This document shows, piece after piece, positions 12,260 through 28,980 of a DNA stretch of 64,000 nucleotides. The notes beneath the pieces were generated by a model, which did not search any database, had not been told where the DNA came from, and saw only the letters and a program-made list of their open reading frames with translations. The position numbers were made by a program, and so were the translations under genes. Positions within the stretch are counted from its first letter, which is position 1. Every line of letters starts with the position of its first letter. The stretch lies in contig JAFXAK010000016.1 of NCBI GenBank assembly GCA_017517135.1, forward strand, positions 1 through 64,000, read 5' to 3'. This DNA is from Clostridia bacterium (GTDB taxonomy: Bacteria; Bacillota; Clostridia; Oscillospirales; Acutalibacteraceae).

Positions 12260-12263
12260 TTTA

Positions 12264-12818
12264 TCAAACCTCAACTCCCTGACAAATCAAATATTCTTTC
12301 AGCTTCTGACGGATTCTTGAAAGAGTGGTTTTTACCTTGCTTTCGCTGATATCAAAACCTTGCGAAATGTCCCTGATACTGTCACAATACCAGTATCTGC
12401 GGATAAAAATGTGTCGCTTTTCGGCATCCAATGAGCGTAAAAAGTCGGAAATATGCCTTGCGGTCTCCTTTTCGTCGAACAGACTTTCCGTCGTTTCAGG
12501 AGTGCTCAACGAAGAAAGCTCGTCTATACATTCCTCATAGCCGTTGCCTCTTTTGCGTGCAGTTCTCTGACGGATTTTTATGACGGAGATATTTTTTATT
12601 ATTCTTCCGAGATATGCACCAAGATACTCAGGTCTGTTTTCGGGCATAGAATTCCAAGCCGCAAGATATGTATCGTTCTCACATTCTTCAGCATCGCTTT
12701 TGTTTTTCAGAATTGAAAAAGCTATTGAATTGAGCATTGCAGAATATTTCTGCTTCGTTTGATTTATCGCGCTTTCGTCACGAAGCCAGAAAAGCTCCAC
12801 TATTTTCCGATCTTCCAT
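12264..12818 (-). CDS. ECF-type RNA polymerase sigma factor
   Basis: 184-residue sigma-70 family protein lacking region 1 and 3. Region 2 covers about residues 15-85 (NKSDAEECENDTYLAAWNSM, then LGAYLGRIIKNISV). Region 4 is near 120-178 with the helix-turn-helix SIRDISQGFDISESKVKTTL. The ATG follows GGAGG by 8 bases. It heads an operon with its presumed anti-sigma factor and a lipoprotein. Promoter targets cannot be told from this window. A second, unrelated ECF pair lies at 47825-49229. Confidence 0.92.
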   Translation of the reverse strand: MEDRKIVELFWLRDESAINQTKQKYSAMLNSIAFSILKNKSDAEECENDTYLAAWNSMPENRPEYLGAYLGRIIKNISVIKIRQRTARKRGNGYEECIDELSSLSTPETTESLFDEKETARHISDFLRSLDAEKRHIFIRRYWYCDSIRDISQGFDISESKVKTTLSRIRQKLKEYLICQGVEV

Positions 12819-14626: not shown

Positions 14627-14655
14627 TTGACAGCATTTTTGTGTTGTGATAAACT
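14627..14655 (+). promoter_or_regulatory. Promoter of first ATP-grasp gene
   Basis: TTGACA (14627-14632), a 17-bp spacer and extended -10 TGaTAAACT (-10 at 14650-14655). The leader before the ATG at 14688 is only about 25 nt. The same extended -10 occurs upstream of the PHP gene at 44683. Confidence 0.75.
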
Positions 14656-14687
14656 TATGCTGTATAAACAAAGGAGTGTTCTTAATT

Positions 14688-16268
14688 ATGAAATCAGACA
14701 CCAATAACAATTCAATAATCCAAAAATTACCTCCGATGCGTAAGGTTGCCATTGAAGCAGTTATGGCAATAACCGGATGGGATGCAGAATATGCGAAACA
14801 ACAGATTTCTTCTGCTGCGAAGAAATTGAATACTACCTGGACTGCTTATGCAAAAAATGAACTCTGGTATCTTGATGAAAATGATTCACCCGCAAGTCTT
14901 GGTGCCGCAAAAAGAACTGCTGCGAAAAGAAAAGAATATATAACAAAGGTCAGGGAAGCTACCGGCTGGGATGAAGCAAAAACCAGAGCTGAATTAGCAA
15001 AAGCCAGAAGCTACGGAATGAATGGTTATTATTACTGTTTATATGCCGCATGGAATCTTTCCGATGAAGAAATTGCAAAGCAGGCAAAGGTTATTGCAGA
15101 AAGAAAAGAACAAAGACAAAAAACCGAAGATTGGTATATAGACACCTGCGTAAAAAAGTCAGGCAAATCCAGAGAAGAAATTGTTGCTCATATGAAGGAA
15201 TTAAAGGCAATGGGTATCAATACTCACAAATATACCACATTTGAATGCTTTAATTTCACTCCCGAACAGATTGAAGCTTTTGCAGTCCGTGCAAAAGAAG
15301 AGCAGGAAAAGAGCGATAACACTACCCGTAAGTATCTGCAAAAGATATGTGATGCAACCGGCTGGTCAGAAGCAAAGGTAAAAATGGAGGTTTCCAGAGC
15401 TAAATTAGCTTGCGGTGCTTCCTATGAGGACTATTATGTTTTCCGTCTTTATGAACAGCCGTATGAAGCACATGCTCAATATGTAACCTTCGGCCTGTTC
15501 AGTAAAATGCGTGCAAAATATAACGATTACGGTCCTTCAATTAAAGTTCTGGATGACAAGGCTGAATTTAACCGTACATTCAGTGACCTTATAAACCGCA
15601 GATGGTTTGTAAACCGCAATCTTTCTTATGAAGAATTCCTGAAGAATATTGACGGTCTGGATTCCGTTATCGTAAAGCCTCTCGCTGCAACACAAGGTAA
15701 GGATGTTCATAAATTCAGCTGTAAAGTTGAAGACAAGGAAGCACTGTATAAAGAAATTATGTCGCTTCGCAAAAGTATTGTTGAAGAATATATCATACAG
15801 CACCCCGATGTTATGGCTTTCTGTGACACATCCGTAAACACAATCCGCATAACAACTCTGAATGCTAACGGAAAATGCAATTTCCTTTACTCTGTTTTCC
15901 GCATGGGCAGAGGAAATGTTGTTGACAATTTCCATGCGGGCGGAATTGCCGCTGCCGTTGACATGCGAACAGGTGTTGTAATTACTCATGCAGCTGATCT
16001 TGAGGCAAATGTTTTCCCCACAAATCCCTACAGCGGTCTTGCTATGCGCGGTTTCCAGATTCCTCATTGGGATAAAATTATTGATATCTGCAAACAAGCA
16101 TACAACCGCGTACCCGGTGCAAATCTTATCGGTTGGGACTTTGCAATCACTCCCGACGGCGTTGATCTGATTGAAGGCAATCCCGGTGCATCTTATGTTG
16201 TTGCACAGATTCCTTTTGTTCAGCACCATGTCGGCTTGCGTGATGTTATGGTTGATCCGTATATGTAA
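14688..16268 (+). CDS. Sugar-transfer-associated ATP-grasp protein with four N-terminal repeats
   Basis: 526-residue cytoplasmic protein. The C-terminal half (about 270-526) is an ATP-grasp domain of the 'sugar-transfer associated' type (ATPgrasp_ST). It has VIVKPLAATQGKD (Lys330) as the nucleotide-binding loop, EEYIIQHP, SVNTIRITT, and the metal-binding end GWDFAITPDGVDLIEGNPG (Glu496, Asn498). The first 262 residues are four repeats of about 60 residues with a conserved ATGW-type turn near 28-31, 91-94, 158-161 and 223-226, which I do not recognise. ATP-grasp enzymes join a carboxylate to an amine or thiol. The substrate is unknown; context suggests a cell-surface polymer. The ATG is preceded by AAAGGAG. 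Confidence 0.85.
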   Translation: MKSDTNNNSIIQKLPPMRKVAIEAVMAITGWDAEYAKQQISSAAKKLNTTWTAYAKNELWYLDENDSPASLGAAKRTAAKRKEYITKVREATGWDEAKTRAELAKARSYGMNGYYYCLYAAWNLSDEEIAKQAKVIAERKEQRQKTEDWYIDTCVKKSGKSREEIVAHMKELKAMGINTHKYTTFECFNFTPEQIEAFAVRAKEEQEKSDNTTRKYLQKICDATGWSEAKVKMEVSRAKLACGASYEDYYVFRLYEQPYEAHAQYVTFGLFSKMRAKYNDYGPSIKVLDDKAEFNRTFSDLINRRWFVNRNLSYEEFLKNIDGLDSVIVKPLAATQGKDVHKFSCKVEDKEALYKEIMSLRKSIVEEYIIQHPDVMAFCDTSVNTIRITTLNANGKCNFLYSVFRMGRGNVVDNFHAGGIAAAVDMRTGVVITHAADLEANVFPTNPYSGLAMRGFQIPHWDKIIDICKQAYNRVPGANLIGWDFAITPDGVDLIEGNPGASYVVAQIPFVQHHVGLRDVMVDPYM

Positions 16269-16296
16269 GAATCCCGAACAATCAGAATAACTCAAC

Positions 16297-16333
16297 AAAA
16301 AACGCAACAGTCTGTGCGACAGTTGCGTTTTTA
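16297..16333 (+). terminator. Terminator after first ATP-grasp gene
   Basis: An 11-bp stem (AAAAACGCAAC 16298-16308 with GTTGCGTTTTT 16322-16332) is followed by a T-rich tail. It separates this gene from the alr operon. Confidence 0.8.
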
Positions 16334-16394
16334 TATTATCGGCATATCCTTATCTTTCTGCAAAAGTGCCGTAAAAAAAATAAACAAAATACAC

Positions 16395-16423
16395 TTGTAT
16401 ATTGCCGTTTCGTGTGATATAAT
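16395..16423 (+). promoter_or_regulatory. Promoter of alr-ABC exporter operon
   Basis: TTGTAT (16395-16400), 17-bp spacer, TATAAT (16418-16423). It leaves an AT-rich leader of about 130 nt before alr. GAAGCTTTC near 16468 can pair with GAAAGCTC near 16532. I see no known riboswitch or T-box in it. Confidence 0.75.
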
Positions 16424-16557
16424 AAATTAAATATAAAAATTACATTTTGTAATATATTTAATAACAGAAGCTTTCATCAAATATACTATTAACACTCAGA
16501 GTTTCAATATAATTTTTATTTTGCAGATAAAAGAAAGCTCGAAAAGGGGAAAAATCA

Positions 16558-17682
16558 ATGGAGCCTCTTCGCCGGGCATGGGCCGAAATCGACCTTGATG
16601 CTTTGGTCAATAATTTTAACATTATAAAAAATACAACAAATCAAAAAATATATGCCGTAGTCAAAGCCGATGCTTACGGACACGGAGCTATACAGATTTC
16701 CCGTGCTTTACAAAGAGCAGGGGTTTTCGGCTTTGCTGTTTCAAATCTTTTAGAGGCTGAGGAGCTGCGTTTCGCGGGAATAGATAAGCCGATACTTATC
16801 TTGGGCTACACTCCCGTTGACTGTGCAAAGCGACTGGCACTCAACAACATCAGCCAGTGCGTTATGTCTTACGACTATGCCGAGCAGCTGAATTTTTATG
16901 CAAAAAAAGCAGATGTCACGGTTACAACACATCTGAAGCTGGATACAGGAATGGGCAGAATCGGGCTTGATTTCCGCAATGAAGAGGATTTCGCTTTTGA
17001 GGAAGCTGAAAGGATTTTTGCACTCAGAAACCTGAACACAGAAGGCGTTTTTATGCATTTCGCCGTTGCAGACAGTGAAGACGAAGACGACAAAAAATTT
17101 ACATCTCAGCAATATAAGCGTTTTCTCAGTGCAGTCAGTCAGCTTGAAAAGAAGCATCCGTTTCAAATCAAGCATTGCAGCAACTCTGCCGCATTGTTAA
17201 ATGGTATTGAGAATCAGGAAACTGCTGTCCGTGCCGGAATTATTCTCTATGGACTGAGTCCCTCAGATAACCTTCCTGTTCCTCACGGAATAAAACCCGT
17301 GATGTCGTTTCATTCCGTGGTTTCAATGATAAAAGACATTGAGCAGAATGAAACGGTAAGCTACGGCAGAACATACACAGCCCCCTCACAGCGGTGCATA
17401 GCAACAATCCCCGCAGGATATGCGGACGGTATGCCGCGTTTACTGTCAAATAAGGGATATGTTATCATAAAAGGAAAAAAAGCCCCCATCATCGGCAGAA
17501 TATGTATGGACCAGTTCTGTGTTGACATCACAGATATTGAAGATGTATCTCTCGGCGATGAGGTAATAATTTTTGGTGACGGGCTTTCAGTAGATGTACT
17601 CGCAGAAATTGCACAGACTATAAATTATGAAATTATTTGCGGAATATCCAAGCGTATTCCCCGTATTTATAAAGGATTTTAG
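16558..17682 (+). CDS. alr: Alanine racemase
   Basis: 374-residue fold-type III PLP enzyme that interconverts L- and D-alanine. The PLP lysine is in YAVVKADAYGHGA (Lys36). The catalytic tyrosine is in the block VSYGRTYTAP, and the C-terminal beta domain has GRICMDQFCVDIT. Length and motifs fit a complete active enzyme. It is the first gene of an operon with an ABC-2 exporter, and lies amid ATP-grasp ligases rather than with cell-wall genes, so it may supply D-Ala for a dedicated polymer rather than for peptidoglycan alone. It ends with TAG, the only amber stop noticed among intact genes here. The ATG follows AAAAGGGG. Confidence 0.95.
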   Translation: MEPLRRAWAEIDLDALVNNFNIIKNTTNQKIYAVVKADAYGHGAIQISRALQRAGVFGFAVSNLLEAEELRFAGIDKPILILGYTPVDCAKRLALNNISQCVMSYDYAEQLNFYAKKADVTVTTHLKLDTGMGRIGLDFRNEEDFAFEEAERIFALRNLNTEGVFMHFAVADSEDEDDKKFTSQQYKRFLSAVSQLEKKHPFQIKHCSNSAALLNGIENQETAVRAGIILYGLSPSDNLPVPHGIKPVMSFHSVVSMIKDIEQNETVSYGRTYTAPSQRCIATIPAGYADGMPRLLSNKGYVIIKGKKAPIIGRICMDQFCVDITDIEDVSLGDEVIIFGDGLSVDVLAEIAQTINYEIICGISKRIPRIYKGF

Positions 17683-17687
17683 CCAAA

Positions 17688-18470
17688 ATGAAAGATTTGT
17701 TTAAGAATTGTAAAAAATATTGGAACTTCTGCTGCTATTCAGCATACTGCCATCTTTCTTCGGACATTTCAAGTATGCGTCTCGGATGGCTCTGGTGGGT
17801 TGCCGAACCTCTCTTGTTCATGGCAGTATATACTGTTGTTTTCTCTGTGGTTTTCAACAGAAATATGACCTACCTTATGGCATATATCTCCTGCGGTCTT
17901 ATGATGTGGAACTTCTTCCAGAGGTGTGTTCTGAACAGCGTGTCTCTGGTAAAGCACTACTCGGGACTGCTGCACAGAGTTTATATACCGAAATACATTC
18001 TGATTTTCTCAACCTTGCTTTATGAAGCTTTCAAAATGTTTATAAGCTTTATGATAGTTATGGTATTTATGGTATACTATCGTATTCCGTTAAGCTTTAC
18101 CACTTTGCAGTTCATTCCCGTACTTGTGACCTTTTTCCTGTTTACCTTCGGCTGCTGTGTATGGCTTCTTCATTTAGGAGTATATCTGCCCGACATAAAA
18201 AAAATCACCTCGGTCTGCTTAAAGGTTTTATTCTACCTTTCCGGTGTATTCTTTTCTCTGGACAACAGAATCAAGGGTGATTTCGGCAGCTTCCTTCTGA
18301 GAGTCAACCCGGTAGGCCGTTTGTTACATGAAGCACGCAATGCATTACTGTATAACACAAACATCTCTGTGCGTCCCGTTGCACTCATTTTTGTTATGGC
18401 TGTTATTTTGTCAGTCAGCGGTATTTTTGTAGTAACACGCTATGAACAACACTATATAAAGGTTTCTTGA
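17688..18470 (+). CDS. ABC-2 type polymer exporter, permease subunit
   Basis: 260-residue membrane protein with six predicted transmembrane helices and the architecture of the TagG/Wzm/RfbA/KpsM permeases that export teichoic acids, O-antigens or capsules. The N-terminal amphipathic segment precedes LGWLWWVAEPLLFMAVYTVV, and the family's conserved late block is NPVGRLLHEARNALLY. It begins 5 bp after alr and 6 bp before its ATPase gene, so all three are co-translated. The product is expected to be a lipid-linked surface polymer moved across the membrane. Confidence 0.9.
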   Translation: MKDLFKNCKKYWNFCCYSAYCHLSSDISSMRLGWLWWVAEPLLFMAVYTVVFSVVFNRNMTYLMAYISCGLMMWNFFQRCVLNSVSLVKHYSGLLHRVYIPKYILIFSTLLYEAFKMFISFMIVMVFMVYYRIPLSFTTLQFIPVLVTFFLFTFGCCVWLLHLGVYLPDIKKITSVCLKVLFYLSGVFFSLDNRIKGDFGSFLLRVNPVGRLLHEARNALLYNTNISVRPVALIFVMAVILSVSGIFVVTRYEQHYIKVS

Positions 18471-18476
18471 TATATT

Positions 18477-19532
18477 ATGGAACAGATAATAAAAGTAAAT
18501 GATATAAAGATATTCTACAGAACACTTGTCAAGCGGAAAGGTTCAAAAAAGTTAACCCATCTGCTCGGCAAGCGCCGCAGTAATTTCTGCGCGTTGCAAG
18601 GAATATCCTTTGACATAACTCCCGGTGAAATTTTAGGAATTATAGGCACGAACGGCAGCGGAAAGTCAACCCTGCTTAAAGCGTTGGGCGGTATCATCAA
18701 GCCCGACAGCGGCAGCATTGAAGTGGCTGAAAATACCAGAGTGTCGCTTCTGGCTTTGGCTTCAAGTCTTATGACGGAAATGCCGGGCCGTGATAACATC
18801 TATCTTATCGGTCTGCAGTTAGGCTTTTCCCGTGAGGAAATAGAAGCACAGTTTAATAAGATAGTGGAATTTGCTGACTTAGGTTCTTTTATTGACAAGC
18901 CGGTACGCACATATTCGAGCGGTATGCGCTCAAAGCTCTCTTTTTCAATTGCAGTGCACCTCACAACCGAGGTTATCCTCATTGACGAGGTTTTAAGTGT
19001 CGGTGATGTTGCTTTCAGACAGAAAAGCTACCAAAAAATGAAAGAGCTTATCACAGACGATAAGCATACGGTTATCATTGTATCGCACGATATGGGCCGC
19101 CTTTCCACCCTTTGTGACCGAGTCCTCTGGCTTGATAAAGGTCAGCTTGTAATGCTGGGAGAAGCAAAAGAAGTTGTCAGCAAATATCAGCAGAAATATG
19201 CGGCGACAGAGCAAAAAGGAATCCAGAGTGAAATAAAAGCTCCCAGACCCATAGAGGTTATCCCGTCACAGAACGGACTTGTGGTCTGCTGGAATACTGT
19301 TTCAGAAGCAACGGGTTACATTGTTTACAGAAAAAAAGAAAAAGAATCCTATAAAAGAGTCGGAATTGTTGTGGGAACACAAACTGATAAGTTTGAAGAC
19401 AACAATGTTTCTCCCGGAGAAACATACACTTATACCATCCGTGCCTTCAGAGTATATAACGGCATAACGGACAGAAGCTCGGTATTTGCTGCAGGTATTT
19501 CCGGCACGGTTCCTCAGAAAAACTCCAACTGA
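18477..19532 (+). CDS. ABC polymer exporter ATPase with C-terminal FN3-like domain
   Basis: 351-residue ATPase of the TagH/Wzt class. The nucleotide-binding domain (about 1-240) has Walker A GTNGSGKST, signature YSSGMRSKL, Walker B EVILIDEVLSVGD and the switch His in SHDMGR. The last 95 residues form a fibronectin-III-like module (VVCWNTVSEATGYIVYRKKE, then GETYTYTIRAF). In Wzt-type exporters an extra C-terminal domain recognises the polymer, so this one may select the substrate, which is an inference. FN3 modules are usually extracellular, making a cytoplasmic one unusual. It pairs with the permease at 17688. Confidence 0.9.
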   Translation: MEQIIKVNDIKIFYRTLVKRKGSKKLTHLLGKRRSNFCALQGISFDITPGEILGIIGTNGSGKSTLLKALGGIIKPDSGSIEVAENTRVSLLALASSLMTEMPGRDNIYLIGLQLGFSREEIEAQFNKIVEFADLGSFIDKPVRTYSSGMRSKLSFSIAVHLTTEVILIDEVLSVGDVAFRQKSYQKMKELITDDKHTVIIVSHDMGRLSTLCDRVLWLDKGQLVMLGEAKEVVSKYQQKYAATEQKGIQSEIKAPRPIEVIPSQNGLVVCWNTVSEATGYIVYRKKEKESYKRVGIVVGTQTDKFEDNNVSPGETYTYTIRAFRVYNGITDRSSVFAAGISGTVPQKNSN

Positions 19533-19605
19533 TATTTTCAAAAATTATATCATTCCAATCGTTGCATATAAAACTTTATCATTGATTGTGTAAGGGACAG
19601 AAAAG

Positions 19606-20652
19606 ATGAAGGAATTTGTAAAAAATTTATTAGAAAAGCTTAAACTTATATATATCTGGTTTACAAAAATCTTGTTTGCAAAGGACCACTTTAAGGTCGC
19701 ACCATGGACAAAGCTTTGGCTTAATCTGCACGGTTATCTTGTTGACCAGTATATGATTTATGATTTCAAGCACCGCGGCTCAAAAGAATATCTTGCCGAG
19801 TTTGACTGGTACCGCTCAAGAAACATAAACGGTGATTACAGCTTTATACTTAACAACAAAATTGTTTGTGCGGATATGCTCAAGCAATATACAAATGTAC
19901 CGAAAACCTATGTAACAAAGGTCGGCAAGGTTATGGTTATGTCTGACAACACCATTGCAACAGACGAAAAAATACTTGAATGTATCCGTGAAAATGCCAT
20001 AGCAATTATGAAGCCGATAAACTTCGGCAAGGGCAACGGTGTTAATCTTATAACATATGAGAACAGAAAGTTTTTTGTCAATAAACAGGAAAAAACAGAC
20101 AAAGAGCTGCTCGATTTTTTGAAATCCTCAAAAAACTGGTTCTTGTCGGAATATATATGTCAGGGAGAATACCTCAACAGAATATATTACCGCACGGCAA
20201 ACACAATAAGACTTATTACCCTGCGCGATCCCGACACACAGGAATTCAAGGTATTTTTTGCAGTACAGCGTATCGGCACAGACAAAACCTTCCCTGTTGA
20301 CAACGGAAGCCGAGGCGGTCTGGTTTCCTGTATTGACCTTGAAACGGGTGCTTTAAGCGAAGCAAAAACTCTGCACAATCTTGATGTTTACGATGTGCAT
20401 CCGAACACAGGAGCACAAATAAAGGGTGCCGTTATTCCAAACTGGTTACAGATAAAAAACGATGTTCTCGCTCTGGCAAACAAGTTCCCTTACTTATCAT
20501 TTGTTGCCTGGGATATACTGGTCACAAACAACGGCTTTTATGTGATTGAAGCAAACACCTCATCAGGTGTAAACATAATTCAGCTCTGGGGCGGTCAGCG
20601 CAACGGCGAGCTCGGTCGTTTTTATAAGGCCCATAATGTTATAAAAAAATAA
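19606..20652 (+). CDS. Sugar-transfer-associated ATP-grasp protein (single domain)
   Basis: 348-residue ATP-grasp protein of the ATPgrasp_ST type, without the N-terminal repeats of its paralogues. It has an N-terminal helical segment with a hydrophobic stretch (LKLIYIWFTKILF, 12-24), then the nucleotide loop AIMKPINFGKGNG (Lys136), SEYICQGEYLNR, ANTIRLITL and the metal site AWDILVTNNGFYVIEANTSS (Glu315, Asn317). All expected catalytic residues are present. The gene follows the ABC ATPase by 73 bp and probably belongs to the same transcript. The acceptor is unknown. Confidence 0.85.
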   Translation: MKEFVKNLLEKLKLIYIWFTKILFAKDHFKVAPWTKLWLNLHGYLVDQYMIYDFKHRGSKEYLAEFDWYRSRNINGDYSFILNNKIVCADMLKQYTNVPKTYVTKVGKVMVMSDNTIATDEKILECIRENAIAIMKPINFGKGNGVNLITYENRKFFVNKQEKTDKELLDFLKSSKNWFLSEYICQGEYLNRIYYRTANTIRLITLRDPDTQEFKVFFAVQRIGTDKTFPVDNGSRGGLVSCIDLETGALSEAKTLHNLDVYDVHPNTGAQIKGAVIPNWLQIKNDVLALANKFPYLSFVAWDILVTNNGFYVIEANTSSGVNIIQLWGGQRNGELGRFYKAHNVIKK

Positions 20653-20691
20653 GTTCTGTTCTGATAATAAATAAATTAGGATGAGATTTTT

Positions 20692-21294
20692 ATGAAATAT
20701 ATAATTATGGCAGACGGCAAAGGACAGCGTTGGAAAAACTTTCAGGGTATTCAGAAGTGTCAGATTCAGATAGGCTCAAAAACACTTTTAGAAATAACCT
20801 GCGACCTGATTCATAGCCTTGATAAGTCTGCAGAAATTTATATCACATCCCACAACCCTGAGCTGCATATTCCCGGTGCTACCCGTTATGAGCCTCAGAA
20901 CAATGTTCTTGAGATTGACAGATTCACCTACGAATTGATTGAACGGGATGTCTGCTTCCTTTACGGTGATGTTCTTTATTCGGAAAATGCAATGCGTTGT
21001 ATCATAGAACACGAAACAGACACCGTTCTGACCTTCGGAAGTGCAAAAAAGATATTTGCAATAAAAATTGCAGATGATGTCTTTTTCAAAAGCCATCTTG
21101 ACCGCGTGCGTGAATTATTCTTAAAAAATGAATTGAAGGAATGCATCGGCTGGGAGGTTTACCACTCTATGCAGGGACTGCCTATCGAATCACGCGAAAT
21201 CGGCAGCAACTATGTCATAATTGAGGATGACACAAGAGATTTCAATGCTCCCTCGGATTTACTCGAATATCAGAAGGAACAGCACGAAAATTAA
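20692..21294 (+). CDS. Small nucleotidyltransferase-like protein
   Basis: 200-residue protein with the N-terminal MKYIIMADGKGQRWKNFQG motif, a variant of the LAAGxGxR nucleotide-binding loop of sugar-phosphate nucleotidyltransferases. FLYGDVLYS is the expected Asp-containing strand, and QKCQIQIGSKTLLEIT is the lysine-containing loop. At 200 residues it is shorter than usual, close to CMP- or CTP-type transferases such as LicC or IspD. It could activate a sugar or choline-like headgroup for the polymer made by this cluster. The substrate cannot be told from sequence. The ATG follows AGGATGAG. Confidence 0.7.
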   Translation: MKYIIMADGKGQRWKNFQGIQKCQIQIGSKTLLEITCDLIHSLDKSAEIYITSHNPELHIPGATRYEPQNNVLEIDRFTYELIERDVCFLYGDVLYSENAMRCIIEHETDTVLTFGSAKKIFAIKIADDVFFKSHLDRVRELFLKNELKECIGWEVYHSMQGLPIESREIGSNYVIIEDDTRDFNAPSDLLEYQKEQHEN

Positions 21295-21367
21295 ATGTTA
21301 ACACTGACTCAAAAAAAAACAAAATCCGATAAAAATATTTTTGTTTCTTGAGATAAGGAGATTTATT

Positions 21368-22666
21368 ATGTTAAATATATTTAAAAAAAATCAAGAGGAA
21401 AATGTTATGAGCAAAGAAAATACATCGATTGCTTCTGTAAACGCAAAAACAGACACAAAAAAACGCAATGAACAAAAAGAGCGTGACATTGCATCCATAA
21501 TGAAAAAGACCGGTTGGTCATATCAGGAAACTGTTGAAAAGGTAGAAGCCCTGAAAGCAAAGCTGGGAGTAACCTTCTTTGATTATAATAAATATAATCT
21601 TCACAAGGTAGCTGCAGAGGACATGGAGTCCAGATATAAGGAAATTCAGGCAAAAAAGCAGGAAAACAAGAAAAAACTCGCAGAATCAAGAGAACATTGT
21701 ATAAACGGTGTTATCAATCAGACCGGTTGGGAAAGAGCTGTTGTTGAGGCTAAAATAGACGAAGCAATAAAACGCACCGGCTGCCGTTACAAGGAATATC
21801 TTTTATACAGATTTTTTGAGCTGACAGAAGAAGAACAGGATCAGATCCCGATAATGTCCTTCACCGCAAAGCTCACCAAAAAATTCAATGTTAATGCAGA
21901 GTTTGCCAGAATGCTGGACGATAAAGCAAGAACAAACATTTTCTTCTCAGAATTTATGAGGCGTCCGTGGTGTGTAAATACGGATGTAACCTTAGAAGAT
22001 TTCAAGAAAATTTTTGCAAAAAGCACCAAGGTTATCTATAAGCCCCTTGAAGGCATAGGCGGTCACGGAATTTCAACATACGAAATCAAAGACAAAAATT
22101 ATGCAGAGGTTTTTTCTGAAATAGTCAAGCAACCCAAGGGTGTTGTTGAAGAATATGTTGTTCAGCACCCGGATATGAGCAAGCTTTGTGCTTCTTCCGT
22201 AAACACCTTGAGAGTTGTTACAATCTGTTCAAAAACAAAACCCGTTACGCCCGACGGAAAGTATATGGATATTGCATACGGTGCACTCAGAATCGGCGGC
22301 GGCACAGATGTTGTTGACAATTTCCACAGCGGCGGTATGGCGGCAGCAGTTGATATGAAAACCGGTGAGCTTATTACCCATGCAGTAGACATGACAGGTG
22401 AAACATATATTGTTCATCCCGTATCGGGCACAAGAATCAAGGGCTTCAAAATCCCCTTCTTTGATGAAGCAATGCAGATGGTCAGAGATATCTGTGCTAA
22501 AGAAGGTGTTGAGGGAAATCTCGGTTGGGATATCGCCATCTCAGAAAATGGTCCCGTGCTTATCGAAGCAAACAGAGGTCCCGGTGCAATTCTTTTGATT
22601 TCTCCTTATATCAATGAGAAAAAAGGTATGATGAGATATGTTCTTGATAAATATCTCGATATTTAA
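21368..22666 (+). CDS. Sugar-transfer-associated ATP-grasp protein with two N-terminal repeats
   Basis: 432-residue paralogue of the product at 14688. Residues 1-38 are charged and flexible, and two repeats of the same type follow (about 40-85, KKTGWSYQ; 108-155, NQTGWERA). The ATP-grasp domain (about 165-432) holds VIYKPLEGIGGHG, EEYVVQHPDM, SVNTLRVVT, NFHSGGMAAAVD and the metal site GWDIAISENGPVLIEANRGPG. The ATG at 21368 follows AAGGAG; an upstream TTG lacks a ribosome site. It is the last gene on this strand before a strong terminator, and a distinct substrate from its paralogues is likely because the repeat number differs. Confidence 0.85.
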   Translation: MLNIFKKNQEENVMSKENTSIASVNAKTDTKKRNEQKERDIASIMKKTGWSYQETVEKVEALKAKLGVTFFDYNKYNLHKVAAEDMESRYKEIQAKKQENKKKLAESREHCINGVINQTGWERAVVEAKIDEAIKRTGCRYKEYLLYRFFELTEEEQDQIPIMSFTAKLTKKFNVNAEFARMLDDKARTNIFFSEFMRRPWCVNTDVTLEDFKKIFAKSTKVIYKPLEGIGGHGISTYEIKDKNYAEVFSEIVKQPKGVVEEYVVQHPDMSKLCASSVNTLRVVTICSKTKPVTPDGKYMDIAYGALRIGGGTDVVDNFHSGGMAAAVDMKTGELITHAVDMTGETYIVHPVSGTRIKGFKIPFFDEAMQMVRDICAKEGVEGNLGWDIAISENGPVLIEANRGPGAILLISPYINEKKGMMRYVLDKYLDI

Positions 22667-22689
22667 TATATTTCCATAAAACCACAACA

Positions 22690-22727
22690 CCCCTTACGGC
22701 AGCACTGCCGTAAGGGGATATTTTTTG
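22690..22727 (+). terminator. Terminator after the ATP-grasp/ABC operon
   Basis: A perfect 12-bp stem (22690-22701 with 22706-22717, CCCCTTACGGCA/TGCCGTAAGGGG), 4-nt loop and ATATTTTTT tail. Confidence 0.9.
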
Positions 22728-22764
22728 ACCTAAGCACAGGTGTAAGCCCTTTACAAGAAAACGG

Positions 22765-22889
22765 CTTCGCCGTACGCCTACGGCGGAATGTTTTCGTATA
22801 GTCCATCTCCGAGGGAAGTTTACTTCCCGTTCGGAGGGACATATAATTTTTTTACTTTATAGGAATAAATTTCCTATAAAGTAAAAAAA
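22765..22889. repeat. Intergenic palindromes between convergent ATP-grasp genes
   Basis: Non-coding stretch with several hairpins: ACGGCTTCGCCGT, CGCCTACGGCG, and a nested pair around GGGAAGTTTACTTCCC (22812-22830). The largest has a perfect 19-bp stem (22847-22865 with 22871-22889) and a 5-nt loop. No gene is visible between 22728 and 22888. Confidence 0.65.
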
Positions 22890-22914
22890 CTGACCTCGCA
22901 AAAACGAAGTCAGT
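22880..22914 (-). terminator. Terminator of tandem ATP-grasp gene
   Basis: A 10-bp stem (22889-22898 with 22905-22914, one G-U) and a minus-strand T run. It lies 31 bases after the stop codon and partly overlaps the 19-bp palindrome. Confidence 0.8.
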
Positions 22915-22945
22915 CTTTAACTTAAATTTTTAATTGCAGTTGAAA

Positions 22946-25387
22946 TTATTTATTTCTGTCGGGAAGCTTGAACAATTTTTTACCAAGATTCTTATCATAA
23001 CCGTAGAGCTTCTTCTTGAGTTCAAGCTTATAAAGCAAGTAATCAATTGTTGCGGGGCTGTATTTCTCAATTGCGGGATAATCGGGGAATCTGTTGATTT
23101 CGGGGAATTTCAGTCCGTCGGGAGTTACGGCAAGGTCAAAGCCGAACCATTCGAGCTGCTGAATTTCTCTTGCAACATCAAGAACATCCTGCTTTACCTT
23201 TTCCCAGTTGGGCAGATAACCGTCAATCTTTTCGTGTGTATCGGGATGATACAGACAGGACTTGATTTCGTTTTCCTCAATAATTTTCGCATCATAGAAA
23301 CGGCCTGTTTCAACATCAATACGGGCATACATACCGCCGGCACCCATATTATCAACGGCACCTGTACGGGAAGAACCGAAACGCATATATGCGTTACCTA
23401 TCTGAGGATTCTTGCCGTCCTTTTTGAATACAAGCATACGGATTGTATTAACCGCACCTGAGTAAATACGCTTGATTTCGGGATGCATATCTATATATTC
23501 CGTGATAAGATACTGATTCTTTTCATCCTGAAGAATATCAAGAACCTGCTGCTCGGTTGCTTCCTGATGATTAAGATAATATTTCTCACCGTCATAAGAG
23601 AACTTAAAGAAGCCGTTGCCGTGGGAGCCTTCGTCGGGCTTGAGAGCAAGGGAGCCTTTTTCCTTGACAAGACGGAAGATATCTTCATATACACCGTCGT
23701 ATCCTTCGGGACAGTCCATCATAGGAAGAATCTTATTCTTACCGTCCTTAAGGCTGATGTGATAGTAGTATTCGGGGAAGCAGTGGTTATATTCGGAGCA
23801 GATATACTTGACTGTAATCTTATCTTCCATCCAATGGCGGTACTTGGGATTGATGTGACGCAACCACTTGTACTCAAAGTCTGAAATATAATTTTTCCAG
23901 TTTTCCTCTGTTATTCCGTACTGATGCAGTCTGTAGGAAATAAATCCGTGCTTAACTGCCCAGAGCTTTTCTTTAAGTGTTGTATCCTTGTTTGTCTTGA
24001 AATCCTTCCACTGGTCCTGGAACCAACGGATTGACAAATACGGAAGCAGTGTTTTGGGAAAGAACATTCTGCAGAAGCCCGCACGAATACGAAGCTTCAT
24101 TTTGTGGCATCCGCGTGATAAAATCTTTGCAGGAGTGTAGGACTCCTTCTTCTGTGCCATCTTTTTCTTAAGATAAGCGGATGTTTCCTTGCTGAAGGGA
24201 ATACGCTGGGGATATCCGGGATGGTTCATAACTCTTGTGATTCTGAAGCCGTCATCAGTAAGGATAATCTCAAGACCGAAAAATTCAAGCTGAGGAACAA
24301 AACGGCACAGCTTCTGAATAGTATCAACTATTTCCTGCCAGCAGGGAATATTTCTGGGAAGGAACTCCATTGTGTTGGGGTTAACCTCGTTCATTCCCTT
24401 GCAGGAATCGATAAGAGAAAGCTCACCTGTCTGTGTGTCTACAGTATAGAATATAGCCTTGCTCTCACCCCAGTTGATTTCCTGATTCAGGCTTTCATCA
24501 ACCTTTTCCGATTCGGATTTCTTTGCCTTGAAAATATTTTCGTCAACAGCCTTTTTTGCTGAAAGAGCCGTACAGAAAAGCTCTTCATCCTTTTCAAAAG
24601 CAATACCCGCCATTGCTTTTCTGTATGCTCTGTTTTCCTGAAGGCTGTGAACCTTACGGAAGCGGATATAGGACTCGCCGATTACGGGATCATTTCCGTG
24701 CTCATTGAAAACAACCAGACGAAGCTTACCGCCGACGAATGCCCTTGAAGCGGCAACTGCCTCACAGACAACAACGATTCCGCCGAATCTCTGGATACGC
24801 CTTCTCAGAGTTTCAACAGGAAGCTCCTGACCGTCAAGATAATATTTCTTACCGTCAAATGCGATAAGCCAGCTCATTCTGCTGACAGAACGCTTTATAC
24901 ACAGAATCTTCTTTTCCCTAAGAAGATCAATAACTGCATCAATAGTATCAGGACCGTTTTTATCCTGAAGATTGATAACCTGAGTTTTTCCGTCACGCTT
25001 ATTGATCTGGAAATAGCACTTGGGCATTGTGTCACGGAAGGGCTTGAAAATAGTATGAACCGTTACCAGGTCAGAAATCCATTTGCTGTAAATTCCGTTA
25101 AGGGGACGAAGATACGCATAATCCTTTGCGGATATTGTATCGTTACGGTTCTCCTCAGTAATACCGAGATTCTTAACCTGAGAGGGTAAAAATCCGTTCT
25201 TAACAGCCCGTCTGACCTGACTGAGAGAATACTCTCCTCCCTGCAATGCCTTACGGTAATTTCTGTACACACTTCTCACCCAGGTCTTTGCTTCCTCACC
25301 GACATATCCGGCAGAGGCCATAGGGAAAGCACGCATATCAACAATAGCATTTTTAACTTTTTTAACAACCTTTTTTGAAGCCATCAT
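22946..25387 (-). CDS. Tandem ATP-grasp protein with degenerate N-half
   Basis: 813-residue protein made of two ATPgrasp_ST modules in tandem, each with its own helical lead-in. The C-half (about 425-813) is intact: LALKPDEGSHGNGFFKF, TEYIDMHPEIKR, AVNTIRMLVF and the metal site GFDLAVTPDGLKFPEINRF. The N-half keeps the fold signature (KYYLDGQELP, ENRAYRKAMAG) but the nucleotide loop reads LCIKRSVSRMSWLIAF and the metal site reads LTDDGFRITRVMNHPGY, so key residues are lost and it is probably a non-catalytic partner domain. The ATG at 25385-25387 follows GAGAGGG. It is transcribed toward the alr/ABC operon and diverges from the CapA-like gene. Confidence 0.85.
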   Translation of the reverse strand: MMASKKVVKKVKNAIVDMRAFPMASAGYVGEEAKTWVRSVYRNYRKALQGGEYSLSQVRRAVKNGFLPSQVKNLGITEENRNDTISAKDYAYLRPLNGIYSKWISDLVTVHTIFKPFRDTMPKCYFQINKRDGKTQVINLQDKNGPDTIDAVIDLLREKKILCIKRSVSRMSWLIAFDGKKYYLDGQELPVETLRRRIQRFGGIVVVCEAVAASRAFVGGKLRLVVFNEHGNDPVIGESYIRFRKVHSLQENRAYRKAMAGIAFEKDEELFCTALSAKKAVDENIFKAKKSESEKVDESLNQEINWGESKAIFYTVDTQTGELSLIDSCKGMNEVNPNTMEFLPRNIPCWQEIVDTIQKLCRFVPQLEFFGLEIILTDDGFRITRVMNHPGYPQRIPFSKETSAYLKKKMAQKKESYTPAKILSRGCHKMKLRIRAGFCRMFFPKTLLPYLSIRWFQDQWKDFKTNKDTTLKEKLWAVKHGFISYRLHQYGITEENWKNYISDFEYKWLRHINPKYRHWMEDKITVKYICSEYNHCFPEYYYHISLKDGKNKILPMMDCPEGYDGVYEDIFRLVKEKGSLALKPDEGSHGNGFFKFSYDGEKYYLNHQEATEQQVLDILQDEKNQYLITEYIDMHPEIKRIYSGAVNTIRMLVFKKDGKNPQIGNAYMRFGSSRTGAVDNMGAGGMYARIDVETGRFYDAKIIEENEIKSCLYHPDTHEKIDGYLPNWEKVKQDVLDVAREIQQLEWFGFDLAVTPDGLKFPEINRFPDYPAIEKYSPATIDYLLYKLELKKKLYGYDKNLGKKLFKLPDRNK

Positions 25388-25458
25388 TAATTCCCTCTCC
25401 ACACATTTTTGTGTTTTTTTACATTCAAATATAAAACCAGAACCAATTTTTCCGTTAC

Positions 25459-25487
25459 AGTATAACACATACAAAGTCAAAGTGCAA
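25459..25487 (-). promoter_or_regulatory. Promoter of tandem ATP-grasp gene
   Basis: On the minus strand TTGCAC (25482-25487), 17-bp spacer, TATACT (25459-25464). It is divergent from the CapA-like promoter 70 bp away. Confidence 0.7.
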
Positions 25488-25556
25488 TATATATATAAGA
25501 CTTTTTTGTGTTATTCAATCTTATTTTATATAATTCTGTCTTTATTTAAAAAGTAC

Positions 25557-25585
25557 TTGCAAACACATTTTCGCTTTGCTATAAT
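25557..25585 (+). promoter_or_regulatory. Promoter of CapA-like gene
   Basis: TTGCAA (25557-25562), 17-bp spacer, TATAAT (25580-25585). Confidence 0.8.
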
Positions 25586-25659
25586 ATTGCAGAAATATAT
25601 TTTATGTGCGTTATTATGCCAAAAAAACTATGATAACCTTAAAGGAGAGGACACAGTCA

Positions 25660-27552
25660 ATGAATTATTCTCAGATTGATAAGTTTGAGTACAAATCTCC
25701 CAGCTACGCATTGTGCAACAGAGAAGGCACAGGCATTGATTCCGATTCCAACAAAAAGCTCCGCCGTTTCACACAGGCAGACAACAACACATTCACATCA
25801 GTTGCAGAAGGCAAAAATTCCGTATCACTTCTGTTCGGCGGCGACCTGCTTTGTCAAGAAGACCTTATAAAGGCTTATCAGAAGCAGGACGGCAGCTATG
25901 ATTTCTCACTCTGCTTTGAATACATCAAGCCCCTTCTTCACTCCGCAGATTTCACAGCAGCAGCTTTAAGAACTCCTGTTTCTCACACCTCTCCCTATCA
26001 GGGTGAAATATTATCTCACGAGGGTCCCCGTTACTATAATGCTCCCGTAGCATACCTTGAAGCACTCTCTCAGGCAGGCTTTGATATGCTCACAACAGAA
26101 GGTAACCACTGCCTTGATACAGGCGTAAGAGGACTTTTCGAAACAATTGAAAACATCAGCAAATTCGGAATGATTCAGACAGGCACAAGCTGCGATGAAA
26201 ACGGTGCAAAATTTGTTATCGTAAACATCTGCGGCTTCAAGGTAGGTATCACTGCCTTCGGCGGTAATTATAACAATATGCGCCGTAACCTGACTGCAGA
26301 GGGTAAAGCTGCATTGCTCAATCCCTTCTCCTTTGATGCAGCAGCTGAAATCCGCACCCAGATGATCAGAAACGGTGCTGAATACACAATCTGTCTTCCC
26401 TTCTGGGGCAAGGAATATACCGAAGAGCTCACTGAAAAGCAGATAGAAACAGCAAGAACTCTCTCTCTTCTCGGCTTTGACCTTGTGCTCGGCTCTCACC
26501 CCCATATGTTGCAGCATTTCAATCTTGTTAACGGCAAGCCTGTTGCTTTTTCATTGGGTGACCTTATATCCGTTCCCAACTCAAAAAAGAAGGGCACCGA
26601 AGACACAGTGCTGTGTCATGTACAGCTGACACGCGCTGAAAATTCAATCGAAACAAATATTGAATTTATCCCCTGCAAAATTGTCAAGGGCTACAAGGGT
26701 ATCCCCTATACCGTTCTCCCCGTTTCAATGCAGATGGGCATTACCGATTCTCAGGAGCCCGTTATTGCAAAAACAGGCGACCGTGTACTTAAGCGCCTGA
26801 ACTGTAAGGCTTCCAGAATCCGTATGGATTTCCCCGTAGACGGCAACACCTTCCTTAACATCCGTGCAATGGAAAAGGATGAGCTTCCTGTGCGTCTGGC
26901 TGCACTCACTCCCGCTGAAAAGCACGAAAACACTATTCCCGCAGTTGAAATGCCTCAGGAGCTTACAGAGGATAAGAATTCTTACCGCCTTGAAAAGAAA
27001 TGTCTGTATAAGCTTGAAGGCAAGACTGCTAAATTAGTTTTATTCGGCAGAACAGGTGAAACAGTAACTCTTCCCAGAAAGGTTGAAAATCTTCCCGTCC
27101 GTAAGGTTTCAGGCGGCGGCGTGAAGAATACAACAACCCGTCTTATATATCTCGGCAGATCCGTCCACAGCATTGAGGATGAAGCATTTGCAGATTTTAC
27201 AGCACTGGAGAGTGTTCGTATCTTCAAGTGGCTCAAGAAGGTCGGCAACAGAGCTTTTGCCGGTTGCTCAAGCCTTACAGGTATTATCCTTCCCAAGAAT
27301 GCTCAGGAAATCGGTGCTGAAGCCTTCCTTAACTGTTCAAGCCTTCTCAGCATCAAGATTCCCCCCAAAGTAACATCAATTGGTGAGGATGCATTCTCAG
27401 GCTGTGAAAAACTCACTATCTTCTGTGAAAGAGGATCAGCTGCTGACGATTATGCAAAAACAAATAAAATCCCCGTAAAATATATGCCTTTAACCGCGAA
27501 AGCTGCTGTCGCAGAAGCAGATGACGATGACGACGATGAGGGCGATGCGTAA
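25660..27552 (+). CDS. CapA/PgsA-like metallophosphatase with leucine-rich repeats
   Basis: 630-residue protein. Residues about 55-330 match the CapA domain of poly-gamma-glutamate synthesis proteins, a metallophosphatase fold: LLFGGDLLCQED, TEGNHCLDTG, and VLGSHPHMLQHF carry the metal-binding Asp, Asn/His and His residues. After a beta-rich linker come BspA-type leucine-rich repeats (about 470-600) such as HSIEDEAFADFTALESVRIF and VTSIGEDAFSGCEKLTIF, then an acidic tail with seven acidic residues. No signal peptide or membrane helix is visible, unlike PgsA/CapA proteins. The ATG at 25660 follows AAAGGAGAGG; it diverges from the tandem ATP-grasp gene, hinting at a shared surface-polymer role. 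Confidence 0.82.
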   Translation: MNYSQIDKFEYKSPSYALCNREGTGIDSDSNKKLRRFTQADNNTFTSVAEGKNSVSLLFGGDLLCQEDLIKAYQKQDGSYDFSLCFEYIKPLLHSADFTAAALRTPVSHTSPYQGEILSHEGPRYYNAPVAYLEALSQAGFDMLTTEGNHCLDTGVRGLFETIENISKFGMIQTGTSCDENGAKFVIVNICGFKVGITAFGGNYNNMRRNLTAEGKAALLNPFSFDAAAEIRTQMIRNGAEYTICLPFWGKEYTEELTEKQIETARTLSLLGFDLVLGSHPHMLQHFNLVNGKPVAFSLGDLISVPNSKKKGTEDTVLCHVQLTRAENSIETNIEFIPCKIVKGYKGIPYTVLPVSMQMGITDSQEPVIAKTGDRVLKRLNCKASRIRMDFPVDGNTFLNIRAMEKDELPVRLAALTPAEKHENTIPAVEMPQELTEDKNSYRLEKKCLYKLEGKTAKLVLFGRTGETVTLPRKVENLPVRKVSGGGVKNTTTRLIYLGRSVHSIEDEAFADFTALESVRIFKWLKKVGNRAFAGCSSLTGIILPKNAQEIGAEAFLNCSSLLSIKIPPKVTSIGEDAFSGCEKLTIFCERGSAADDYAKTNKIPVKYMPLTAKAAVAEADDDDDDEGDA

Positions 27553-27573
27553 TAATTAAATGCTTTAACAGCA

Positions 27574-27616
27574 AAGACTTGTACATTCGAAAAAAGGTGT
27601 ACAAGTCTTTTTTTTA
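27574..27616 (+). terminator. Terminator of CapA-like gene
   Basis: A 12-bp stem (27574-27585 with 27598-27609, AAGACTTGTACA/TGTACAAGTCTT) and a run of T. Confidence 0.9.
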
Positions 27617-27624
27617 ACATACAG

Positions 27625-27653
27625 TTGACCAAAATCTGCTTTCGTTATATAAT
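27625..27653 (+). promoter_or_regulatory. Promoter of secreted metallophosphatase gene
   Basis: TTGACC (27625-27630), 17-bp spacer, TATAAT (27648-27653), about 31 bp before the ATG at 27685. Confidence 0.8.
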
Positions 27654-27684
27654 CAATGTATACAGAACCTCGGAGGAATAATTT

Positions 27685-28980
27685 ATGTCTGCATTTATTT
27701 CTTTACTTTTAGGCTTTCTTTCTCTTTTTACATCGCTTTTTGTCCCCCTGTCAAAGGCTCAGATACCGGAGAACAATGATGATTTTGTACCCGTTGCCCG
27801 TTTTATCGCAACAAGTGACACTCATATCACCGCTCTCGGAGACAAGGGCTGTACAAGAATTGCGAAAATGATAAACTCCGCTTATGCCATAGCCGAGGCA
27901 GATTCAGACTACAATAAGCTTGATGCGGTTGTTTTCGCAGGAGATATCACCGACAGCGGTACTTTCACCGCTTTTTCCGCCTTTGCGGCAACCACCGACA
28001 AGGCAATAAAGGGCGATACCGAGAGACTTGCAGTTGTTGCAAAATCGCACGACTCGTCCTCTTTCGGCAGCGATGCACTTGACACATTTACTTCCCTTAC
28101 AGGGCAGGAGCCTGATTTCCACAGAGTTATAAACGGCTTCCACTACATAGGTATTTCCCGCTCCCCCACAGACGAGCATTACACAGCCGAGCAGGTTAAA
28201 TGGCTTGACACCGAGCTTGAAAAAGCAACAAAAGAAGCTCCCGAGCAGCCCGTTTTCGTATTTACTCACGAGCATGTACTGAACACCGTTTTCGGTAGCT
28301 TTGCATATGACGGCTGGGGTATGGATACCTTCCTCGATGTACTCAACAAATATCCTCAGGTTATTCATATTTCGGGACATTCACACTACCCCGCAAACGA
28401 TCCCCGTTCAATATGGCAGGGCAATTTCACAGCTATCGGTGACGGCGGACTTGCTTACTATGAATTTACGGTTGATAATGAAACATCAGTTCATCCCCAC
28501 AACTACAAGAGTATGACACAGGCTCTTCTCATTGAAATTGATGCAGACAACCGTGTGCTTATAAGAGTTTTGGATGTTGATGCAGGCGAATTTGTCAAGG
28601 AATATCTTGTTGACAATGTCTCCTCTTCCGTAAAGCTCAAATACTCCCACGATGCGAGAAAGCTTTTAAGCACAGCTCCCGTATTCGATGAAAATGCCGC
28701 TCTTAGCGTAAAGAAGTCCTGCGGTAAATACAAAATCACCGTTCCTCAGGCAAAGGTTACGGGCGATAATGAAGTATACTTATACAGAATCAGCATAACC
28801 GATTCCGACGGTAATGAAGTATATTCCGCCCGGGAGCTTTCACAGTATTACTTTGCAGACACACCCGACAGCATCACATTCAGCGGCATCAGCCTTAAAA
28901 ACGGCAGTTACACCGTAAGTGTTGCAGCCGAAGATGTATGGGGTAATCTCAGCGAAGCTCTCACAACTCAGATAGGCTAA
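27685..28980 (+). CDS. Secreted calcineurin-like metallophosphoesterase
   Basis: 431-residue protein with an N-terminal signal or anchor (LLLGFLSLFTSLFVPLSKA). The phosphoesterase domain (about 35-290) has ATSDTHI, FAGDITDSG, FTHEHV and SGHSHY, which are the usual metal ligands. The GNHD/E block appears as VAKSHDSSS, so the Asn of that motif is missing and activity may be altered. A beta-sandwich-like C-terminal region (about 330-431, YRISITDSDGNEVYSA) follows. It is preceded by its own promoter. The substrate is unknown; position next to the CapA-like gene suggests envelope work. Confidence 0.82.
   Translation: MSAFISLLLGFLSLFTSLFVPLSKAQIPENNDDFVPVARFIATSDTHITALGDKGCTRIAKMINSAYAIAEADSDYNKLDAVVFAGDITDSGTFTAFSAFAATTDKAIKGDTERLAVVAKSHDSSSFGSDALDTFTSLTGQEPDFHRVINGFHYIGISRSPTDEHYTAEQVKWLDTELEKATKEAPEQPVFVFTHEHVLNTVFGSFAYDGWGMDTFLDVLNKYPQVIHISGHSHYPANDPRSIWQGNFTAIGDGGLAYYEFTVDNETSVHPHNYKSMTQALLIEIDADNRVLIRVLDVDAGEFVKEYLVDNVSSSVKLKYSHDARKLLSTAPVFDENAALSVKKSCGKYKITVPQAKVTGDNEVYLYRISITDSDGNEVYSARELSQYYFADTPDSITFSGISLKNGSYTVSVAAEDVWGNLSEALTTQIG

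Follow-up and report, generated by a model that had tools for sequence, protein, structure and literature searches.

We analysed a 64-kb stretch of DNA (the window) on contig 9 of the genome of a Clostridia bacterium of the family Acutalibacteraceae (assembly GCA_017517135.1; 2.27 Mb, 94% complete), in which a cluster spanning 14.6-28.9 kb combines four genes for ATP-grasp proteins of the ATPgrasp_ST family (PF14397) with an alanine racemase gene (alr), an ABC exporter pair, a nucleotidyltransferase (NTase) gene and a CapA-like gene (Table 1). The cluster probably encodes a teichoic-acid-type cell-wall polymer system with ATP-grasp ligases as its core enzymes, in which a CDP-activated unit would be amidated and exported. 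The observed part of this model comprises the gene content, the conserved linkage of a 348-amino-acid ATP-grasp protein (AG348) to the NTase and a TagF/TarL-like polymerase, the distribution of intact and apparently dead active sites among the ATP-grasp domains, and the folds of AG348 and the NTase.

Scanning 84,980 species genomes with the 348-amino-acid ATP-grasp pair identified 22 related loci, in Emergencia, Anaerostipes, Anaerofustis and Lachnospiraceae among others, with AG348 relatives 50-56% identical to the window protein. The polymerase, AG348 and NTase follow one another in this order in 20 of the 22, with no other query gene between them; the exceptions are L101, where the NTase precedes the ATP-grasp and no polymerase was found in the retrieved DNA, and L102, where the ATP-grasp stands alone at a contig edge. 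NTase relatives were present in 21 of the 22 loci, a LytR-CpsA-Psr (LCP) wall ligase in 13, a tandem ATP-grasp in 15 (two of them interrupted by a contig end), an additional ATPgrasp_ST gene in 6, a glutamate racemase in 5 and CapA in 4, while neither alr nor the metallophosphatase was found in any of the 22. At 80% identity the AG348 sequences of 21 loci (without L102) formed seven groups. The trio is present in six of these, with L101 making up the seventh, and a single clone therefore does not explain the linkage. Correlations between the identity matrices of the three core proteins were 0.87-0.94 (20 of the 21 members not being the window) but were given little weight, since any co-inherited genes would correlate. 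For contrast we fetched 35 other ATPgrasp_ST loci (584 kb), which are part of all ATPgrasp_ST matches and some of which are short: 34 held neither polymerase nor NTase, and an ABC ATPase match was present in 4 of the 35. The 35th (L074, from Anaerofustis) proved to be an AG348 locus and has both. Here a single 1076-amino-acid protein joins CapA, LRR_5 and ATP-grasp, followed by a PF04464 polymerase, relatives of AG348 (55%) and the NTase (51%), and the start of a counterpart of the 844-amino-acid ATP-grasp gene at the contig end; its proteins are identical to those of L088 (Anaerofustis stercorihominis), which is judged to be the same contig. Querying 72,556 plasmid records with AG348 gave seven matching records, all at 27-31% identity, and no relative of the 441-amino-acid ATP-grasp was confirmed when it was used as a query of the genome collection.

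The first-pass annotation of this DNA had noted that the cluster contains no glycosyltransferase, which is correct for the ten cluster proteins scanned with Pfam and NCBIfam; the missing polymerase sits just outside the window. The sole PF04464 gene found in the genome lies on contig 9 at 66255-67304 (open reading frame (ORF) 66180-67358), 2.2 kb past the window end, and its product shares 44-49% identity with the polymerases of the 22-locus set. Its best PDB relative is TarL (2e-32), and the polymerase profile matches TarL at 1.6e-40. Polymerases of this kind have ~370-390 amino acids; the NCBIfam TarL and TarB models match about equally, both below cut-off, so that ribitol and glycerol cannot be told apart. 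A glutamate racemase gene follows the polymerase after 10 bases. The TagF-like gene also adjoins a gene on the + strand (contig 9, 62963-65941; L106:2963-5941) for a 992-amino-acid protein of many similar CxxC-bearing repeats (by eye), a possible surface partner. As a separate observation on the LCP genes of the 22 loci, a threonyl-tRNA synthetase gene lies 3′ of the LCP gene in 11 of them (L082, L084, L089, L092-L094 and L096-L100).

All four ATP-grasp proteins exceed the Pfam cut-off for PF14397 (31.4 bits), scoring 138, 130, 151 and 131 bits in the 540-, 348-, 441- and 844-amino-acid proteins respectively, and a whole-genome search gave exactly these four matches over the cut-off. Five ATP-grasp domains had originally been counted in the four genes. 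The fifth, the N-terminal half of the 844-amino-acid protein, is not detected by Pfam but is real: its alignment with the C-terminal half spans 388 columns at 24.5% identity (E 7e-33). Judged from its motifs, however, it looks catalytically dead. We take the ATP lysine, the glycine loop and the E-x-N metal motif to define an active ATP-grasp site; in the N half both the ATP-binding lysine/glycine loop and the E-x-N motif are missing, from the window protein as well as from 13 aligned relatives, and the C half keeps K-P-D-x-G-S-H-G and P-E-I-N-R in all 14 sequences, two further relatives interrupted by contig ends being left out of the alignment. Twelve positions of AG348 picked as likely site residues are invariant across 22 aligned sequences. 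By eye, the 540- and 441-amino-acid proteins keep the lysine and E-x-N, the glycine loop of the former having a single glycine. These two proteins begin with repeats of ~45 amino acids, four and two in number; in a test of 15 pairs of hand-cut segments, 13 were matched by ≤3 of 500 shuffles and the other two by 10 and 78. Relatives of the repeat-bearing ATP-grasps with similar N-termini (by eye) occur in L090, L091, L099, L103 and L066. The source of this ATP-grasp family is reportedly a 2009 amidoligase paper by Iyer and colleagues. No description of the trio or of the dead/live ATP-grasp tandem was found in the literature, most subscription papers lying outside the search, and both seem to be new.

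Fold searches gave a clearer result for AG348 and the NTase than profile searches against PDB sequences, where AG348 had a single match (E 0.14) and the best E value for the NTase was only 0.017. The AG348 model (predicted local distance difference test, pLDDT, 77.5) has RimK, D-Ala-D-Ala ligase (Ddl) and LysX, all of which form amides, among its best Foldseek matches, and a Streptomyces ATP-grasp peptide ligase also appears in the list. For the NTase (AlphaFold2 model, pLDDT 88.9) the top matches are PntC, CTP:inositol-phosphate cytidylyltransferase, LicC, IspD and MobA, and sugar-1-phosphate nucleotidylyltransferases are also present. Residues G9, G11, R13, K22, G92 and D93 are invariant in the aligned locus sequences, including what we take to be the GxGxR and GD nucleotide-binding motifs. 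Cytidylyl transfer is likely on the strength of the model, but not certain. Among the matched enzymes, PntC is described as making CMP-AEP and LicC as making CDP-choline (PMC6697681). ATP-grasp enzymes have likewise been placed with surface polymers: an account of the Campylobacter jejuni capsule has a TupA-like ATP-grasp (Cj1438) amidating glucuronate with serinol-P or ethanolamine-P (PMC11800379), a table of a Clostridium acetobutylicum surface-sugar cluster puts an ATP-grasp amino acyl ligase beside a sugar phosphate nucleotidyltransferase (PMC4000134), and in Bacillus halodurans a TupA-type gene is described as tied to an amino-acid-bearing wall polymer, teichuronopeptide (PMC8153356).

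The cluster resembles known teichoic systems, with the conserved ATP-grasp core as a variant. It shares with wall teichoic acid systems (TagF/TarL, TagGH, LCP) a PF04464 polymerase and, in its relatives, LCP enzymes, and has a candidate TagH-like ATPase with an ABC-2 permease, both matching below cut-off; it differs from them in having ATP-grasp ligases and a cytidylyltransferase-like NTase in its conserved core, and no TagD/TarIJ or dltABCD match was found in the ten cluster proteins (Pfam, NCBIfam; the genome was not searched for dlt). Like Cj1438, reported to have been shown to make polymer amides (PMC11800379), its ATP-grasps are encoded with surface-polymer genes, whereas Cj1438 is TupA-like rather than a PF14397 protein and its glucuronate capsule uses GT2 polymerases, not a TagF-type polymer. 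The B. halodurans system similarly places a TupA-type gene with an amino-acid-bearing wall polymer (PMC8153356), but TupA belongs to another ATP-grasp family and no glucuronate genes are present among the ten cluster proteins here. LicC and PntC resemble the modelled NTase in fold, in the GxGxR and GD motifs and in use beside surface-polymer genes; they differ in that identity in structural alignments is 9-16%, that no lic or ppm gene was found in the 30 window proteins scanned and that CTP use is here a prediction.

In the mechanism that we propose, the NTase would activate a phosphorylated unit with CTP and the TagF/TarL-like enzyme would join such units on a lipid carrier. AG348 would attach an amino acid or amino alcohol to the unit or to the chain through an amide bond. 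Further groups would come from the other ATP-grasps, one of which would be paired with a dead domain, and CapA would act inside the cell on the same polymer intermediate. The ABC exporter would then move the lipid-linked chain out and an LCP enzyme would attach it to peptidoglycan. The sequence of steps, the identities of the unit, acceptor and amino acid, any D-alanine use and, for this species, attachment to the wall are inferred. An amino-acid-bearing surface polymer had already been suggested by the first-pass annotation and is likely right in kind, although that reading now derives from the polymerase, NTase and exporter neighbours and not from alr, whose place in a conserved system is unsupported by the neighbourhoods.

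A number of points weigh against a teichoic-type system. The core is patchy: none of 299 other genomes of the host family had the NTase, and AG348 turned up in 1 of 13 Anaerofustis-group genomes. Because AG348 served to find the 22 loci, all counts depend on it, and with several short contigs among them some absences may reflect cut contigs. In this genome the polymerase lies ~41 kb from the ATP-grasps, and the three LCP genes are all on other contigs, with none in the window or near the cluster; by eye, no recognisable teichoic cluster was seen in their three neighbourhoods. The structure-database comparison suggested for the ATP-grasp proteins, run on AG348, gave a RimK/Ddl/LysX-like fold but low template-modelling (TM) scores (0.34-0.47), with carboxylases, PurK, PsnB and inositol-phosphate kinase among the 50 matches listed, and for the NTase the TM-scores were 0.45-0.67 at 8-16% identity among the 50 matches listed. 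The exporter adds to these points. The window permease has matches in 7 of the 22 loci at 19-24% identity and none at E 1e-4 in the others, permease and ATPase lie apart in 3 of the 16 loci that have both (L090, L091, L103), and two congeners whose exporters are among the closest to that of the window (G013, G018) carry a double TupA-type ATP-grasp beside the exporter pair on the opposite strand.

CapA keeps company with these ATP-grasps, occurring within 3 kb of an ATPgrasp_ST gene at 7 of 13 congener, 0 of 7 family/order, 1 of 15 class and 4 of 22 core loci, compared with 0 of 7 loci around alr (98 kb, a small control). Some of the congener loci counted had themselves contributed to the CapA profile; the window CapA alone found six of the seven. 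Hydropathy revealed no membrane segment in the window CapA, so it is not the membrane-anchored component of a synthase for poly-gamma-glutamate. CapA also matches the epimerase MslH weakly, far under the model cut-off, and might conceivably act as an epimerase. The metallophosphatase, which had been placed beside the system together with CapA, lies behind a terminator-like stem and has a 33% identical relative in one congener locus (L041), ~7 kb from CapA; with that stem before it and no counterpart in the 22 loci, it was dropped as a system member. At two of the 22 loci (L099:2190-7130 and L098:2226-7131, the latter with proteins 85-95% identical to their L099 counterparts) genes for a glutamate racemase, a MurF-like ligase joined to LRR_5 and Ddl adjoin the exporter and trio. 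A CapA-MurF fusion at these loci is held to be weak, as the PGA_cap match in L099 (21.9 bits) falls short of the cut-off (27) and BLAST places the similarity to the window CapA in the LRR part.

Such associations could also belong to a poly-amino-acid or glycan-peptide layer on the cell surface, similar to poly-gamma-glutamate or teichuronopeptide, for which CapA together with the ATP-grasps would be the synthetase and the ABC pair the exporter; the TagF-like gene would then serve a separate teichoic acid. CapA is repeatedly beside or fused to ATPgrasp_ST (the 7 of 13 congener loci and the Anaerofustis fusion), the arrangement in L099 and L098 combines a sub-cut-off PGA_cap match with Ddl and glutamate racemase, and TupA-type ATP-grasps stand beside close exporter relatives in two congeners. 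We nevertheless consider this unlikely. PgsBCA/CapBCA share the CapA domain (PF09587) with the cluster, but we take PgsBCA to consist of PgsB and PgsC beside a membrane-anchored CapA; neither PgsB nor PgsC has a match in the ten cluster proteins (Pfam, NCBIfam), and CapA here lacks a membrane segment and carries LRR_5. Moreover, no PF14305 domain was found in the cluster by Pfam, and in 20 of the 22 loci AG348 has a TagF-like gene as its direct neighbour.

No PF00842 gene other than the window alr was found in the genome, and this alr therefore presumably feeds peptidoglycan too, although, the assembly being 94% complete, another alr may have escaped it. The window alr is 47-50% identical to alr of congeners; seven congener genes compared are 57-94% identical to each other and 47-49% to it. 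For comparison, arginyl-tRNA synthetase is 72-81% identical to congeners. The usual alr site, in three congeners compared, is flanked by a carbohydrate phosphorylase gene on one side and a gene without known function on the other. In the genome studied here, contig 24 (L131:6510-7643) has the same flanks (phosphorylase 76-78%, 431-amino-acid gene 48-50%) with a DUF975 gene replacing alr, and no trace of alr was left at this site in tblastn searches with three congener genes beyond a 30-amino-acid match (E 0.48). Three other congener alr loci (L115, L116, L119) have other neighbours. We thus rejected alr as the genus's usual gene, on its identity and the vacated site, and also as a marker of the conserved system, of which the first-pass annotation had made it a part, on its absence from all 22 loci. 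Likeliest is that a foreign alr entered the operon and became the cell's only alr, a history that fits a role in D-alanine supply without showing it. Besides the window, one case of alr next to an ATPgrasp_ST gene was seen, a second, divergent alr on contig 9 of a congener (G019; L123:6689-9001).

As for the exporter, its assignment to the TagGH type is qualified by a TagH-like ATPase below the model cut-off and a weak permease match. By best-matching query, at least three sets of exporters can be distinguished among the 22 loci, and sequence comparison shows them to be only distant relatives and not orthologs of the window exporter. In a search of 99 genomes, pairs in G013, G018 and G072 were 35-37% (permease) and 51-52% (ATPase) identical to it. 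The expectation that the ATP-grasp genes would keep alr and ABC exporter genes as neighbours in other genomes therefore held only in part: permease and ATPase are both present in 16 of the 22 loci (adjacent in 13) together with teichoic-type neighbours, but alr is in none and the exporters are not orthologous. The neighbourhood might be a composite, with a housekeeping alr, an exporter for an unrelated polymer and ATP-grasps gathered by gene gain; the single alr found in the genome and absent from the related loci, the differing exporter and the lack of the NTase in the 299 other family members are all in line with this. We judge it improbable, given gaps of 5 and 6 bases between alr, permease and ATPase, followed by 73 and 39 bases to AG348 and the NTase, and given that the core elsewhere also sits with other exporter types (by best-matching query). 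The window looks like a variant of the teichoic-type system in which the core genes have been rearranged, the polymerase has moved away and a local exporter type is used. Likewise improbable is a role of the ATP-grasps in protein modification, as for RimK or graspetide ligases, or in the synthesis of a small peptide-like metabolite, with the exporter secreting the product. The Foldseek matches do include RimK, PsnB and the Streptomyces peptide ligase, and NCBIfam gives weak alpha-L-glutamate ligase-like matches far below cut-off, but the genes conserved alongside encode a polymerase of teichoic type, an LCP ligase and an exporter of the kind used for polymers.

The predicted alr, ABC exporter, nucleotidyltransferase-like, CapA-like and metallophosphatase genes were all recovered with Pfam and NCBIfam, with weak matches for the permease and NTase. 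Gene starts at 14688, 21368, 25387 and 25660, each with a ribosome-binding-like sequence, were chosen by eye; the previously proposed start of the cluster at 14627 coincides with a promoter-like hexamer and is no gene start. The + strand genes from alr through permease, ATPase, AG348 and NTase to the 441-amino-acid ATP-grasp are separated by 5, 6, 73, 39 and 73 bases (the last counted from the ATG at 21368), and the 844-amino-acid gene converges on the stem at 22690-22717. With 22 terminator-like sites in the scanned region against 12.1 expected, single sites are weak evidence. Adjoining the cluster on the - strand (window 11558-12818), a sigma-70-family factor overlaps a downstream gene with one membrane segment (by eye), a probable sigma/anti-sigma pair. 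Further along the window, on the + strand, 30812-32311 encodes a TPR protein, possibly foreign, whose C-terminus matches NucS weakly and under the cut-off and whose third-position GC is 0.22 compared with 0.30-0.49 in 25 other genes measured, and 55928-59737 encodes a 1269-amino-acid protein with an NPHP3_N/NACHT domain, a large STAND-type NTPase and possibly a defence gene.

Table 1 Features of the ATP-grasp cluster (window coordinates)
Feature	Position	Strand	Evidence
ATP-grasp ligase (ATPgrasp_ST), 540 aa, four ~45-aa N-terminal repeats	14688..16268	+	ORF opens GTG 14646; ATG 14688 with ribosome-binding-like sequence; Pfam
alr, alanine racemase	16558..17682	+	TIGR00492, 377 bits
ABC-2 / Wzm-like exporter permease	17688..18470	+	NCBIfam NF050109 4e-13, Pfam 3e-4, both below cut-off
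TagH/Wzt-like exporter ATPase, C-terminal extension	18477..19532	+	NCBIfam NF010066 (TagH) 192 bits, cut-off 320
Core ATP-grasp ligase AG348, 348 aa	19606..20652	+	Relatives in 22 loci at 50-56% identity
Nucleotidyltransferase (NTase), probably cytidylyltransferase	20692..21294	+	Weak family match; relatives in 21/22 loci; Foldseek
ATP-grasp ligase, 441 aa, two N-terminal repeats	21368..22666	+	ORF opens TTG 21341; Pfam
Terminator-like stem, 12 pairs, 3′ of + strand genes	22690..22717	+	Terminator scan
Tandem ATP-grasp, 844 aa, apparently dead N half and intact C half	22946..25387	-	ORF opens TTG 25480; Pfam, half-versus-half alignment
CapA-like protein with BspA-type LRR_5	25660..27552	+	ORF opens GTG 25606; PF09587 159 bits
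Terminator-like stem between CapA and metallophosphatase	27573-27610		Terminator scan

Surface charge, tolerance to antimicrobial peptides and recognition by phages and hosts are determined by teichoic acids and the amino acids that decorate them, and Dlt, the known decoration route, adds D-Ala esters outside the membrane. The conserved ATP-grasp core of the proposed teichoic-type system would mean amide decoration within the cell, ahead of export. A more specific version, which we advance only tentatively, is that the repeating unit may be amide-linked to an amino acid before polymerisation: the NTase and AG348 would make a CDP-activated aminoacyl unit, the TagF-like enzyme would polymerise it, and the dead/live tandem and the soluble CapA would add D-amino acids, giving a distinct class of Clostridia wall teichoic polymer. 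If true, this would constitute a cytoplasmic alternative to Dlt-type D-alanylation. The trio is small (about 370, 350 and 200 amino acids), making reconstitution in vitro feasible, and the system would point to a function for ATPgrasp_ST and soluble CapA, both of them families that are poorly understood.

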